A stretch of DNA of 64,000 nucleotides, taken from positions 62,001-126,000 of the forward strand of contig NZ_WPZY01000006.1 of assembly GCF_013031405.1 (NCBI RefSeq), given 5' to 3'. This document shows, in pieces, positions 19,354-44,042 of the stretch. The DNA comes from Ruegeria sp. HKCCD8929 (GTDB lineage: Bacteria > Pseudomonadota > Alphaproteobacteria > Rhodobacterales > Rhodobacteraceae). The number at the start of each line of letters is the position of its first letter. The stretch's first letter is position 1. The notes below the pieces were generated by a model that was not told where the DNA came from, ran no database searches, and was given only the letters and a program-made list of their open reading frames with translations. The position numbers and the translations under genes were made by a program.

Positions 19354-19593
19354 ATGGCTTCGGACAGACAGAATCTTCAGGACGCGTTCCTGAATCATGT
19401 ACGGAAGACTAAGGTTCCGGTAACGATTTTCCTGATCAACGGCGTGAAGTTGCAAGGTGTGATCACCTGGTTCGACAATTTCTGTGTGCTCCTGCGCCGC
19501 GACGGACAGTCGCAGCTGGTGTATAAGCACGCGATCTCGACCATCATGCCGGCTCAGCCGATCAGCCTATATGAGGGCGAAGACGCCACTTGA
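19354..19593 (+). CDS. hfq: RNA chaperone Hfq
   Basis: A 79-residue Sm-like hexameric RNA chaperone that helps small RNAs pair with mRNAs. It shows Sm1 ([20 protein letters not shown]) and Sm2 ([15 protein letters not shown]) motifs and the conserved Gln8/Phe42/Tyr-Lys-His RNA-binding residues. The C-terminus is short, as usual in alphaproteobacteria. Its stop overlaps the hflX start (TGATG). Its presence is relevant to the small-RNA candidate at 41944-42018. Confidence 0.98.
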
Positions 19594-39982: not shown

Positions 39983-40003
39983 ATTTCGTGAAATATGGAA
40001 ATA
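39974..40003. promoter_or_regulatory. Perfect 30-bp palindrome: probable ArsR operator
   Basis: Arms TATTTCCATATTTC and GAAATATGGAAATA (14 bp each) around a GT centre. It covers the predicted -10 box and the start codon of the arsR-arsC fusion, which is ideal for repression by the encoded ArsR domain and release by arsenite. Assignment to ArsR is inference from position. Confidence 0.75.
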
Positions 40004-40018
40004 TCACGTAGCCGTCAA
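39990..40018 (-). promoter_or_regulatory. Sigma-70 promoter of the ars operon
   Basis: On the minus strand, TTGACG (40018-40013), a 17-bp spacer, then TATTTC (39995-39990). The expected start of transcription is about 39983, one base before the ATG of the fusion gene, predicting a leaderless mRNA. The -35 box includes the stop codon of the upstream peptide-binding-protein gene. Confidence 0.65.
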
Positions 40019-41829
40019 TCCTGATACCACCAGACATCGGGCATGTATTGCGGCCCGTCACCATAGATCGGCAGGTAGTCGGGGAATTTCAGCTCCTTGG
40101 CATGGGCGATGCGGCCCACATCGAAGCTCCAGATCGGGATCACGTAGCGGCCCGAGGTCAGCACCCGGTCCAGCGCCCGTGTGGCGGCCTGAAACTCTTC
40201 GGGCGTCTCCGAGGCCAGCATGGCGTCGATCATCGCATCGGCAGCGGGCGAGGCCACGCCCATCAGATTGCGCGTGCCCGGTGTTTCGGCCACGTCGCTG
40301 CCCCAATATAGCCGCTGTTCGTTGCCCGGAGACAGCGATAACGCGCGGCGGAACGGGGTCAGGTCGAAATCCAGCTCGCTCACTCGGCCCGTATACTGGG
40401 CGTCATCGACTTTGTCGGTGGTGACACCAATACCCAGACGCTCCAACGCGCGGGCATAGATCTCAACCACCGTTTCCATCTCGGCATCGCCTTGGCGGAG
40501 CAGGAAGGTCACGTTGAGCGTCTGACCATCTGCGTTCGTGAGGTGGTCGTTCTGGATGGTCCAGCCGGCACCAGCCAACACCTTTGCCGCCTTGCGCAGG
40601 TTCTTCCGGTTGCGGGCCGAGCCATCGCCTTCGGGCAGGGCATAGCCCTCAAGCGCGCCCGGCAGAAGCTGATCCGAGAACGGCTCAAGCAGCGCGCGCA
40701 CCGCGCCCTCGGCTGGGCCGGGGCGCATGGCCAGGTCCGAGCCCGAGTAGTACGAAGTGATCCGGGGTTGCGCCCCACCAGTGACCGTGTCGTTGATGAA
40801 CTCGAAGTTGAAGGCCAGCATCAGCGCCTCGCGCACGTGCCAGTCGTCAAACGGGGCCTTGCGGGTGTTCATGACAAACCCGGTCATGCCCGAAGGTTTG
40901 CCGTGCGGAATCTCGGTCCTGATCACATCGCCGCGCGTCGCGGCGGGAAAATCGTACTGCTTCTGCCACTTCTCGGCGTTGAACTCACGCACTGCCGTCA
41001 GTTCGCCTGCCTTGAACGCTTCGAACAACACGGTCTGGTCGCCGTAGAACTCGATCCGCATCTCGTCGAAATTCATCGTGCCCCGGCGAAACGGGACATC
41101 GGCGCCCCAATAGTCCGGGTTGCGGGTCAAGGTGACGAACCGGCCCGCCTCGTAATCGGTGACCACGTATGGCCCCGAGCCGACCGGCACGTCCTGCAGC
41201 GGGGCATTGGCAAAATCCTTGCCCTCCCACTGCGACTTTTTTAAGATCGGGCGCATTCCGGCGATTAGCGCCAACTCACGATCGGCCTCAGAAAAGGTGA
41301 TGCGGACTTTGCGCGGGCCGGTCTGTTCGATACTGCCGATCTTGGACCAGAGCCCGCGATAACGGATATGGCCCTGCGTCCCCAGCGTCTCATAGGACCA
41401 GATCACATCGTCGACCGTGACCGGGCTGCCATCAGAGAATCGGGCCTCTTCCCGCAGGGTGAACTCGACCCATGAGCGGTCCTCTGCCGTCTCGACCGAT
41501 TCGGCCAGCAGACCATAAAGCGTGAAGGGTTCGTCCCAGGACCGGCCCATCAGGCTTTCATGCGGCCAAAAGCGCAACTGCCAGGGAACCGTGCCTTTCT
41601 GCACGAAGGGATTGAGGCTGTCGAAGCCGCCCGTGTTGCCGAACACAACCCGTCCGCCTTTTGGCGCGTCAGGGTTGGCGTAAGGCAGAGACACAAAATC
41701 CGGTGGCAGGGCGGGCTGGCCATACATAGCTATGCCATGCGCCGATTCTGCCTGCGCATTTGTGACGCACAAAACTGCGGTGATTCCCGCAAACACTAGA
41801 CGAATGGGGTGGAAAAGATCCGCTCGCAT
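40015..41829 (-). CDS. Family 5 extracellular solute-binding protein (oligopeptide type), orphan
   Basis: A 604-residue periplasmic binding protein of the peptide/nickel ABC class, close to the YejA type. It has a signal peptide (LVFAGITAVLCVTNAQA), then HGIAMYGQPALPPDF and the family stretch PKGGRVVFGNTGGFDSLNPF. Core SBP_bac_5 motifs are EEARFSDGSPVTVDDVIWSYETL and YVVTDYEAGRFVTLTRNPDYWG. No permease or ATPase gene is adjacent, so it must work with a transporter encoded elsewhere. A consensus promoter lies 42 bp before its ATG. Confidence 0.9.
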   Translation of the reverse strand: MRADLFHPIRLVFAGITAVLCVTNAQAESAHGIAMYGQPALPPDFVSLPYANPDAPKGGRVVFGNTGGFDSLNPFVQKGTVPWQLRFWPHESLMGRSWDEPFTLYGLLAESVETAEDRSWVEFTLREEARFSDGSPVTVDDVIWSYETLGTQGHIRYRGLWSKIGSIEQTGPRKVRITFSEADRELALIAGMRPILKKSQWEGKDFANAPLQDVPVGSGPYVVTDYEAGRFVTLTRNPDYWGADVPFRRGTMNFDEMRIEFYGDQTVLFEAFKAGELTAVREFNAEKWQKQYDFPAATRGDVIRTEIPHGKPSGMTGFVMNTRKAPFDDWHVREALMLAFNFEFINDTVTGGAQPRITSYYSGSDLAMRPGPAEGAVRALLEPFSDQLLPGALEGYALPEGDGSARNRKNLRKAAKVLAGAGWTIQNDHLTNADGQTLNVTFLLRQGDAEMETVVEIYARALERLGIGVTTDKVDDAQYTGRVSELDFDLTPFRRALSLSPGNEQRLYWGSDVAETPGTRNLMGVASPAADAMIDAMLASETPEEFQAATRALDRVLTSGRYVIPIWSFDVGRIAHAKELKFPDYLPIYGDGPQYMPDVWWYQD

Positions 41830-41870
41830 TTTGGCACCAATTCTGCTCAGGCCTTATTTTGTTGAGGATC

Positions 41871-41899
41871 ATCGTAGCGATGGTTTTCCGTATTTTCAA
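41871..41899 (-). promoter_or_regulatory. Consensus promoter of the solute-binding-protein gene
   Basis: On the minus strand TTGAAA (41899-41894), a 17-bp spacer, TACGAT (41876-41871). The expected transcript start is near 41864, giving a leader of about 35 nt before ATG 41829. Confidence 0.65.
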
Positions 41900-41908
41900 A
41901 CTTTTAGC

Positions 41909-41937
41909 TTGGATGCCGCAGCGGAATTGCGTATAAA
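41909..41937 (+). promoter_or_regulatory. Consensus promoter for a short plus-strand transcript
   Basis: TTGGAT (41909-41914), a 17-bp spacer, TATAAA (41932-41937). The predicted start is near A41944. Its -35 box is 9 bp from that of the divergent solute-binding-protein promoter. Confidence 0.65.
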
Positions 41938-41943
41938 GGGTGC

Positions 41944-42018
41944 ACTGCTCGATAGGTTTCTTGCCTGTATGAAACCTGCCTCAATAACTTAACGCCCGCT
42001 TCGTGCGGGCGTTTTTTT
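41944..42018 (+). ncRNA. Candidate small RNA of about 75 nt
   Basis: From the predicted start at 41944, the RNA would carry a stem-loop AGGTTTC / GAAACCT (arms 41954-41960 and 41971-41977, 10-nt loop), then a single-stranded GCCUCAAUAACUUA segment. It ends in a strong intrinsic terminator, ACGCCCGC / GCGGGCGT (41992-42012, 5-nt UUCGU loop), with seven U residues. No ORF of note starts in it and no plus-strand gene lies upstream, so the terminator has no other client. The build (seed hairpin, open A/U segment, terminator with U-tail) is that of an Hfq-dependent regulatory RNA. No known RNA family recognised; an attenuated bdhA leader is the alternative. Confidence 0.6.
41992..42018 (+). terminator. 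Strong intrinsic terminator without an upstream plus-strand gene
   Basis: An 8-bp GC-rich stem ACGCCCGC / GCGGGCGT with loop TTCGT and T-tract 42012-42018. It is directional: the minus strand shows no U-run. It sits between the divergent solute-binding-protein and bdhA genes, inside the 342-bp gene-free interval 41830-42171. The rest of that interval holds the two promoters described and, after the terminator, the bdhA upstream region. Confidence 0.85.
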
Positions 42019-42134
42019 GTCCACAGGTCCGGCCGGCCGAAAGCAGCGGGCGGCACCGGTTCCAGGGCAGATGTGCGCGGTGAGCCACCCGCCCGGCGTT
42101 TCCCCGTTTCCTTTGCAGGTGCAGCATGGCACTG

Positions 42135-42144
42135 TTTGCGCAAA
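42135..42144. promoter_or_regulatory. Palindrome TTTGCGCAAA upstream of bdhA
   Basis: A perfect 10-bp palindrome 28 bp before the bdhA ATG, in a region rich in TGC/GCA triplets (TTTGCAGGTGCAGC at 42111-42124). PHB-linked repressors such as PhaR and fatty-acid regulators of this bacterial group bind TGC/GCA-type palindromes. The link is tentative. Confidence 0.3.
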
Positions 42145-42171
42145 TCGGAAAATCACTTTGGGAGAGCCTCC

Positions 42172-42945
42172 ATGTCCTTGTCGGGAAAAACTGCAATCGT
42201 CACCGGATCGAATTCGGGTATCGGTCTGGGCATCGCCTGGGAAATGGCCCGGGCGGGTGCCGATGTGGTGCTGAACTCGTTCACCGACCGGGACGAGGAT
42301 CATGCGCTGGCTGCGCAGATCGCGGACGAGACCGGAGTGGCCGCGCGCTATATCAAGGCGGACATGTCAAAGGGCGAGGAATGCCGGGCGCTGATCGAAC
42401 AGGCCGGTGCCTGCGATATCCTGATCAACAATGCCGGTATTCAGCATGTCTCGCCCATAGACAGTTTCCCGGTCGACAAATGGGATGCAATCATCGCGAT
42501 TAACATGAACTCGGCCTTCCACACCATGGCCGCCGCGCTGCCGATGATGCGTGCGGCCGGGTGGGGGCGGGTGGTCAACATCGCCTCGGCCCATGGCCTG
42601 ACCGCCTCGCCCTATAAGGCGGCCTATGTGGCGGCCAAGCACGGTGTGGTCGGCATGACAAAGACCGTCGCGCTGGAGACCGCGCAGGAGCCAATCACCT
42701 GCAACGCGATCTGCCCCGGCTACGTGCTGACCCCGCTGGTCGAGGCGCAGATCCCCGACACCATGAAGGAATACGGCATGAGCCGCGAGGACGTGATCAA
42801 GAACGTCATGCTTGAGCGGCAGCCGTCCACGGATTTCGCCACTGTCGAGCAGCTGGGCGGCACTGCGGTGTTTTTGTGCTCGGATGCGGCGGCGCAGATC
42901 ACCGGAACGACGATTTCTGTCGATGGTGGCTGGACGGCGCTTTGA
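42172..42945 (+). CDS. bdhA: D-3-hydroxybutyrate dehydrogenase
   Basis: A 257-residue short-chain dehydrogenase that oxidises 3-hydroxybutyrate to acetoacetate with NAD in polyhydroxybutyrate use. It has the cofactor loop TGSNSGIGLGIA (~10-21), NNAG at ~90, and catalytic Ser-Tyr-Lys (NIASAHGLTASPYKAAYVAAKHG). The family tail is QPSTDFATVEQLGGTAVFLCSD ... ITGTTISVDGGW. ATG 42172 follows GGGAGAG; the frame open to 42073 is too long for the family. A patatin-like lipase gene follows. Confidence 0.93.
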   Translation: MSLSGKTAIVTGSNSGIGLGIAWEMARAGADVVLNSFTDRDEDHALAAQIADETGVAARYIKADMSKGEECRALIEQAGACDILINNAGIQHVSPIDSFPVDKWDAIIAINMNSAFHTMAAALPMMRAAGWGRVVNIASAHGLTASPYKAAYVAAKHGVVGMTKTVALETAQEPITCNAICPGYVLTPLVEAQIPDTMKEYGMSREDVIKNVMLERQPSTDFATVEQLGGTAVFLCSDAAAQITGTTISVDGGWTAL

Positions 42946-42958
42946 GGTGAAGGTTGTC

Positions 42959-43010
42959 GTGGGGGCGCTGCCCCCACACCCCCGGGATATTTGAAAACAG
43001 AAGAAGGGGT
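42959..43010 (+). repeat. Dispersed intergenic repeat, copy 3, with hairpin
   Basis: An 8-bp stem GTGGGGGC-GCT-GCCCCCAC (42959-42977) is followed by CCCCCGGGATATTTGAAAAC and AGAAGAAGGGG. It shares the CCGG...GATATTTG core and purine tail with copies 1 and 2 but is divergent. The tail AAGAAGGGG lies where the Shine-Dalgarno sequence of the patatin gene is needed. Confidence 0.6.
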
Positions 43011-43016
43011 GGGGTC

Positions 43017-44042
43017 GTGAAAAGCATCAATCTTGCACTTCAAGGGGGTGGCGCACACGGGGCGTTTACGTGGGGGGTGCTGGACCGGCTTCTGGATGAA
43101 GACGATGTCGAGGTGGCCGCGATCTCCGGCACTTCGGCGGGGGCGCTGAACGGGGCCGCGTTCAAGGTAGGTATGGTCAAGGGCGGGCGTGAGGGCGCGC
43201 GTGAGAACCTGCGCCGGCTTTGGGAGCGTATGGGCGCCATCGGTGACATGCGCATCGCCAACTGGATGCGCGGGTTGGAACCGGCGCAGATCGCGCAGGC
43301 GATCGAGTATTCGCTGCCGTTTTCCATGGCCGACGCCTGGTCGCGGATGGTGTCGCCTTATGCCTATGGCCCGTTCTACAGCAACCCGCTGGAATCGGTG
43401 GTCGAGCGGTTCGATTACGAGGGGGTCTGCGCCGACGCGGGGCCGCGGCTCTTCGTCTGCGCCACCTGTGTGCGCACCGGCAAGATCCGCATCTTTACCC
43501 GCGACGAAATCACGACGGATGCGATTCTGGCCTCGGCCTGTTTGCCGACACTGTTTCAGGCGGTCGAGATCCACGATCCGAAATCTGGGCGGACCGAGGC
43601 CTATTGGGATGGCGGCTACACCGGCAATCCGGCGCTGTTTCCCTTGTTCAATGAGGGGCTGCCGGACGATGTGGTGATCGTCAACATCAACCCGTTGGAA
43701 CGCGATGAGATCCCGCGCACGCCGCAGCAAATTCAGAACCGGATCAACGAGATCGGCTTCAACTCCTCGCTGCTGCGCGAACTGAGGGCGATCAGCTTCG
43801 TGCAGCGGCTGCTAGACTCGGGCAAGTTGCAGAAAGGTGAGATGAGTCGGGTGCTGGTGCACATGATCGCCGATGACGATCTGATGAATTCCCTGTCGGT
43901 GGCGACCAAGCTGGTGCCGACGCCGGTGGTTTTGACCCGGCTGAAAGAGGCCGGGCGCGCGGCGGCCCACGGTTTCCTACGCGATCACAAATCCGATCTG
44001 GGGGAACGTGGCACCGTCGATCTGGCGGCGATGTTCAACTGA
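43017..44042 (+). CDS. Patatin-like phospholipase
   Basis: A 341-residue serine hydrolase of the patatin fold. It has the oxyanion loop QGGGAHGAF (9-17), nucleophile elbow GTSAG with Ser40, and catalytic Asp198 in WDGGYTGNPA. It likely acts on acyl esters such as phospholipids, or on short polyhydroxybutyrate; the neighbouring 3-hydroxybutyrate dehydrogenase makes the latter thinkable but unproven. Start GTG 43017 after AAGAAGGGG; the frame continues left only through the repeat. Confidence 0.88.
   Translation: MKSINLALQGGGAHGAFTWGVLDRLLDEDDVEVAAISGTSAGALNGAAFKVGMVKGGREGARENLRRLWERMGAIGDMRIANWMRGLEPAQIAQAIEYSLPFSMADAWSRMVSPYAYGPFYSNPLESVVERFDYEGVCADAGPRLFVCATCVRTGKIRIFTRDEITTDAILASACLPTLFQAVEIHDPKSGRTEAYWDGGYTGNPALFPLFNEGLPDDVVIVNINPLERDEIPRTPQQIQNRINEIGFNSSLLRELRAISFVQRLLDSGKLQKGEMSRVLVHMIADDDLMNSLSVATKLVPTPVVLTRLKEAGRAAAHGFLRDHKSDLGERGTVDLAAMFN

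Follow-up and report, generated by a model that had tools for sequence, protein, structure and literature searches.

Published reports describe StsR (formerly RSs0827) of R. sphaeroides as a 72-nt, Hfq-binding small RNA (sRNA) that is controlled by RpoHI/RpoHII; by binding to the sRNA UpsM and to the dcw 5′ untranslated region (5′ UTR), StsR makes an RNase E site accessible and lowers the expression of division genes in stationary phase (PMC8307010, PMC8625941, PMC11354728). Work under its former name found that iron limitation and prolonged singlet-oxygen stress induce it (PMC3413700, PMC3688512), and rpoE is a further StsR target tested in R. sphaeroides (PMC8307010). UpsM itself originates from the mraZ (dcw) leader, and one study has suggested that only Rhodobacteraceae have this extended 5′ UTR (PMC5089854); cleavage of the 206-nt R. 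sphaeroides UpsM by RNase E leaves 130 nt (PMC6238624). Another relevant sRNA is Intergenic 134 of P. denitrificans, which is 84 nt long, abundant, confirmed by RT-PCR, and conserved in Rhodobacteraceae, including Ruegeria, and which has its genomic context in common with a putative sRNA of R. sphaeroides (PMC5107571).

The RNA considered here is predicted in a 64,000-nt stretch of the Ruegeria sp. HKCCD8929 genome (here called the window), and sequence comparison suggests a trans-acting stress/stationary-phase sRNA that is, in all probability, orthologous to R. sphaeroides StsR. Its predicted 75 nt, with their own promoter and strong terminator, are intergenic between divergent genes (Table 1). 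Upstream is a gene for a family-5 solute-binding protein (minus strand, 40015 to 41829; Pfam), and downstream is bdhA, encoding 3-hydroxybutyrate dehydrogenase (plus strand, 42172 to 42945; TIGR01963), which starts about 150 nt 3′ of the RNA terminator on the same strand. The first-pass annotation of this DNA had correctly described the divergent flanking genes and had placed the promoter, start, stem-loop, and T7-tailed terminator where we find them; hfq, which it had reported in this genome, lies within the window, and its product is expected to be the chaperone serving this RNA.

Table 1. Positions in the window of the predicted small RNA, its control elements, its candidate pairing segments, and hfq
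Feature	Position	Strand	Basis or remark
Small RNA, 75 nt, probable StsR ortholog	41944..42018	+	Ends predicted from sequence
Upstream promoter block AAACTTTTAG, −46 to −37	41898..41907	+	79 to 94% per position, 209 loci
−35 region CTTGGAT	41908..41914	+	CTTG at −36 (178/209 loci) or −37 (11/209)
−10 region TATAAA	41932..41937	+	TATAAA in 138/209 loci; T−12, A−11, T−10 in 95 to 98%
Frozen 5′ part, nt 1 to 40	41944..41983	+	Identical, 203/209 loci
Stem-loop 1, loop UUGCCUGUAU (nt 18 to 27) mostly unpaired	41953..41978	+	Fold
Perfect complement of the mraZ (dcw) leader, nt 19 to 35	41962..41978	+	Sequence matches
UGCCUC, complement of GAGGCA at the ftsB start region	41977..41982	+	Sequence matches
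22-nt segment, extended complementarity to the pre-ftsB region in part of Ruegeria	41967..41988	+	Sequence matches
Rho-independent terminator, 9-bp stem plus T7	41991..42018	+	Scan and fold; both-side changes in all 7 modelled pairs
hfq	19375..19563	+	Pfam PF17209, E 4.3e-33

The promoter reads TTGGAT (41909 to 41914), a 17-bp spacer, and TATAAA, with an expected start at A41944. Stem 1 is formed by AGGUUUC and GAAACCU (41954 to 41977; eight pairs when U41953-G41978 is counted), and the terminator is ACGCCCGC-UUCGU-GCGGGCGU from 41992, with T7 at 42012 to 42018. The fold energy of the whole RNA is −26.3 kcal/mol, compared with −14.4 kcal/mol (standard deviation, 2.8) for 200 dinucleotide shuffles, none of which was as good (z = −4.3). 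A promoter/terminator scan of positions 40000 to 44000 found the terminator and did not list the RNA promoter, whose TTGGAT matches TTGACA at three of six positions; the “consensus promoter” of the first-pass annotation was therefore too strong a term for sigma-70. Over the same interval, the scan counted two promoter-like elements (shuffled expectation, 0.9) and five terminator-like elements (shuffled expectation, 3.3). Single elements of either kind are no better than chance; their conservation is beyond chance. Such counts would suit the view that chance hairpins occupy an intergenic gap and that no functional RNA exists, to which we give next to no credence in the face of 40 nt frozen family-wide, covariation in the terminator, and a promoter whose elements are conserved while its spacer varies.

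With positions 41900 to 42025 of the window as the BLAST query, the segment reaching from the promoter through the terminator's final T (41900 to 42018) was matched in all 36 other Ruegeria genomes at 157 bits or more. Across the family, represented by about one genome per genus, the RNA was matched in 289 of 295 genomes and in 258 of the 260 with completeness of at least 90% and contamination of at most 5%. A second match was listed in 12 of the 295; in the two inspected (G143 and G254), it covers the terminator end only. One family genome that is 90% complete (G193) had no RNA match and contained one leader-type site with one mismatch (contig C250:2088-2104, L239), which reflects either an assembly gap or a true loss of the RNA. 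A class-wide model search of 289 genomes placed the four listed family members above 100 bits and two genomes from other families at 28 to 29 bits (E about 1e-3), which we took as chance matches; under strict filters, 283 of the 289 genomes gave no match, 263 of them being unlisted, with unreadable families. No match to the RNA was found among phage records.

The identity of nt 1 to 40 was recorded over 209 loci, some of which share a genome; L130, L137, and L188 were left out of this set as lying too near a contig end. At least 118 loci had been chosen through an exact 25-mer inside the RNA, and the 115 of these in the set were all identical over nt 1 to 40, as were 88 of the 94 loci picked otherwise, among them 22 of the 28 loci taken as the weakest matches. 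Beyond nt 41, the linker varies across loci, as does the terminator, with a T tract of six to nine over the 209 loci. Upstream of the RNA, CTTG at −36, TAT at −12, and an A/T block are conserved while the spacer drifts. CTTG and TAT elements fit an alphaproteobacterial RpoH promoter, and those of this gene are compatible with, and short of proof for, a promoter of that type.

Covariation was assessed in 43 sequences (37 distinct) that we chose and aligned to the model, a procedure that biases the set toward the structure. All seven modelled terminator pairs changed on both sides, and 98.8% of the cells were paired in the 37 distinct sequences; the covariation score of the whole structure was reached by none of 500 shuffles, and slid controls dropped to 26 to 52% paired. 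Helix 1, paired at 99.1%, is without covariation because seven of its nine pairs are invariant, so that covariation is neutral on it (neither for nor against) and the helix is predicted from folding. The terminator stem covaries among relatives, where the first-pass annotation had proposed a covariance search. Sequence conservation indicates that the RNA is almost certainly functional, that it is presumably transcribed, and that it is a free-standing, probably trans-acting RNA. The depth of this conservation is new, and the near-absolute freezing of 40 nt makes it a directly testable question which targets constrain the RNA.

The divergent solute-binding gene adjoins the RNA in 178 of the 188 loci whose upstream sequence exceeds 400 bases, and bdhA follows in 150 of the 183 whose downstream sequence exceeds 700 bases. 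The other 33 (for example, L141, L152, L178, and L209) keep the RNA and lack bdhA. Two of the three Neomegalonema loci and single-cell genomes have other neighbor genes, as named from their translations, and both usual neighbors are present in two Paracoccus records, where the RNA lies on a 1.5- to 1.7-Mb replicon filed as a plasmid. The possible link to bdhA in the first-pass annotation is thus not borne out, and the RNA is not a normal bdhA leader, since it persists in the 33 loci without that gene. Reading it as a 5′ leader or attenuator of bdhA would account for the placement of a terminator some 150 nt 5′ of bdhA in the same orientation and for the frequency with which bdhA follows, and there are matches to Leu_leader (27 bits; gathering threshold, 50; E 0.001) and to Trp_leader (22.5 bits; gathering threshold, 41), both below gathering. 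We regard this reading as very improbable: besides the loci without bdhA and those with different neighbors, the frame MKPASIT is without its stop where ACTTAA has become ACTCAA (2 of 66 loci).

Two further observations concern the neighborhood. At L116 and L166 (Neomegalonema) and at L100, the RNA stands beside genes reading as coaD or a glutaredoxin, so its context has changed there while the 5′ part has stayed frozen. In the window, CTTTGCAGGTGCAGCATGGCAC at 42111 to 42132, 5′ of bdhA and outside the bdhA frame, is well conserved in 20 aligned Ruegeria loci; it resembles a TGC-rich operator of the PhaR type and may be the control site of bdhA itself.

A second exact 17-nt match to the RNA is present in 34 of 37 Ruegeria genomes (own genome included), and the other three have a 16-nt match. 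The four second sites inspected (own genome, G017, G001, and G007) all lie in the mraZ leader (MraZ by Pfam) on the strand opposite mraZ; the sequence in the mRNA is accordingly CAGGUUUCAUACAGGCA, which is perfectly complementary to RNA nt 19 to 35. Allowing at most one mismatch, the 17-mer is present in 144 of 149 family genomes, with at least two sites in 94 (one of them being the RNA gene itself), one in 50, and none in 5; the reversed pattern, used as a control, was found in none of the 149. From the matches listed we chose 20 places and dropped 3 that were the RNA gene; 16 of the 17 true second sites lie 180 to 240 nt before the MraZ match, on the same strand. L299, a second site not near mraZ, was taken as a chance match.

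The duplex of the RNA with the mraZ leader of its own genome has an energy of −38.4 kcal/mol. When 2.4 Mb of one Ruegeria contig (G029) was scanned, the mraZ leader ranked third with a score of 42, behind the RNA gene itself (score, 116) and one further site (44), and it fell inside the range of the maxima for 10 shuffled RNAs (37 to 43). The pairing is thus not significant by score in one genome, and it is conservation of the site that argues for it. If the leader RNA starts near L021:272, its predicted start, the site occupies leader nt 52 to 68 and is partly accessible. The 130 nt left from the 206-nt UpsM place its cut near nt 76, just downstream of this site. Farther along the Ruegeria mraZ leader, a long GC hairpin whose loop measures 10 nt is followed by T5 (L021:437-477) and is likely the UpsM terminator; the terminator scan, which has a loop limit of 8, lists none at this position. 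The conserved complementarity to the division-cluster leader is new. As a separate observation, a site complementary to the RNA with a score of 44 (G029:C1:1399631-1399650, L457) lies 1.2 kb upstream of an rne-like gene and was set aside; 29 of 54 Ruegeria genomes match it at up to three mismatches, and the match is exact in G029 and G364 only.

The first-pass annotation had proposed an undescribed trans-acting RNA. That it is free-standing and probably trans-acting is upheld by the comparison, but “undescribed” is not, because the complementarity to the mraZ leader makes it a probable StsR ortholog. The two share the target leader (UpsM/dcw) and the family; they are similar in size (72 nt for StsR, 75 nt predicted here), both genes are free-standing, and the RpoH-like CTTG promoter and the presence of hfq are compatible with StsR. 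Like StsR, the Ruegeria RNA is a free-standing sRNA of about 72 nt with its own promoter and terminator, as judged from predicted ends, and its pairing with the UpsM/dcw leader is seen as complementarity, with a 17-nt perfect match in its own genome and, in other genera, 16 of the 17 true second sites lying before mraZ. Cleavage, Hfq binding, and RpoH control have been reported for StsR and are predicted for the Ruegeria RNA. Several points weigh against the assignment: 55 of 149 family genomes fall short of two sites when one mismatch is allowed, the mraZ leader is not significant by complementarity in one genome, the ftsB duplex is modest in the own genome, and nt 1 to 18 are frozen yet do not pair with the leader core. 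If the RNA is an StsR ortholog, then the StsR circuit, in which an sRNA induces the cut of another sRNA and of the division-cluster mRNA, extends to most Rhodobacteraceae, including marine Roseobacter relatives.

The assignment was made from the shared leader, the similar length, the common family, and a compatible promoter, which leaves some room for a different trans-acting Rhodobacteraceae sRNA that also pairs with the mraZ leader. Intergenic 134 could be this RNA (PMC5107571); its number would suggest a location on chromosome 2, and the Paracoccus copies of the window RNA are found on a large second replicon, again with the two usual neighbors. Nonetheless, we consider a different sRNA improbable, given that pairing with UpsM defines StsR, that the lengths are about equal, and that second matches, confined to the terminator end in the two inspected, occur in so few of the family genomes. 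Moreover, Intergenic 134 and StsR may be one RNA.

Known families offer no closer candidate at the thresholds applied: Rfam returned nothing at gathering for the whole window, and the weak scores of the RNA, all of which include the terminator, are all below gathering. MmgR/suhB (RF00519; 18.7 bits against a gathering threshold of 41), SorX (RF02784; 18.0 against 46.6), and BjrC1505 (RF02356; 26.8 against 50) were rejected, and the RNA is not a member of these families. The likeness to SorX and BjrC1505 is that of alphaproteobacterial sRNAs built from a hairpin, a linker, and a terminator. MmgR/suhB is likewise an alphaproteobacterial small RNA; MmgR has a role in polyhydroxybutyrate metabolism, which the position of bdhA beside the window RNA recalls. 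Letter strings of the RNA returned one match in the literature searched, a mouse paper, and the portion of the R. pomeroyi sRNA survey covered (PMC4809877) held no entry matched to the window RNA.

If the Ruegeria RNA works as an StsR ortholog, its RpoH-type promoter, suggested by the published control of StsR and by the CTTG and TAT elements, would turn it on under stress, and the 75-nt transcript would stop at its own terminator and be held by Hfq. The loop and the 3′ arm of the stem (nt 19 to 35) would pair with the mraZ leader through their 17-nt complementarity, and this pairing may expose the leader to RNase E immediately downstream, lowering the expression of division and cell wall genes, as reported for StsR. 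A new prediction is that the invariant UGCCUC would pair with the ribosome-binding region of ftsB and lower ftsB translation.

In some Ruegeria genomes, a weaker second match falls in the region preceding the ftsB start (DivIC by Pfam), which complements RNA nt 24 to 45 except for two to three mismatches or a single inserted base. Of 54 Ruegeria genomes, 24 have a second match with at most three mismatches; ftsB was confirmed as its location in G012 and G018 and, with an inserted base, in G001 and G026, and the match of the own genome lies elsewhere. Against 200 mononucleotide shuffles each, the ftsB duplex gave z-scores from −3.9 to −5.4 for five Ruegeria loci and −2.3 for the own genome; in 28 other genera, the values lay between +2.0 and −2.0. 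The short motif reaches further: GAGGCA is present near the start in 23 of 30 ftsB loci, compared with 5 of 454 loci of four control genes (bdhA, 3/156; solute-binding, 2/134; patatin, 0/104; DUF502, 0/60). Any GAGG occurs in 27 of 30 ftsB and 117 of 454 control regions, and, given GAGG, the motif is GAGGCA in 23 of 27 versus 5 of 117; of the 628 G029 genes that have a GAGG site, CA follows in 6.5%. These matches make ftsB a predicted further target, reached through pairing of GAGGCA with the invariant UGCCUC; a six-base seed is weak, and the GAGGCA site of ftsB could belong to another RNA. There were no occurrences of ftsB in the StsR literature searched, and ftsB is a concrete new candidate target.

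Tentatively, and as a possibility that we would not favor at even stakes, the RNA may act as the hub for a regulon of division and envelope genes that is frozen throughout Rhodobacteraceae, combining cleavage of the dcw leader with direct silencing of ftsB by masking of its ribosome site and perhaps also acting on ddl, anmK, and other genes with GAGGCA at the start. If true, such a hub would explain why 40 nt, including the stem, cannot change. It is also possible, though less likely than not, that the main conserved targets of an StsR-like RNA are not division genes (rpoE, tested for StsR in R. sphaeroides [PMC8307010], is an example) and that mraZ and ftsB are minor ones. RNA nt 1 to 18 are frozen, yet unpaired with the leader core, and 34 genes in 2.4 Mb of G029 have 8- to 11-nt matches to the RNA near possible starts, in keeping with other main targets; cross-genus conservation, on the other hand, was found for the mraZ leader and ftsB, the two sites for which it has been demonstrated. 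In G029:C1, at 2108306, 1758327, 674053, and 61578, there are also GAGGCA-type sites, complementary to the RNA, near the starts of genes whose translations suggest ddl, anmK, cpaC, and msrP.
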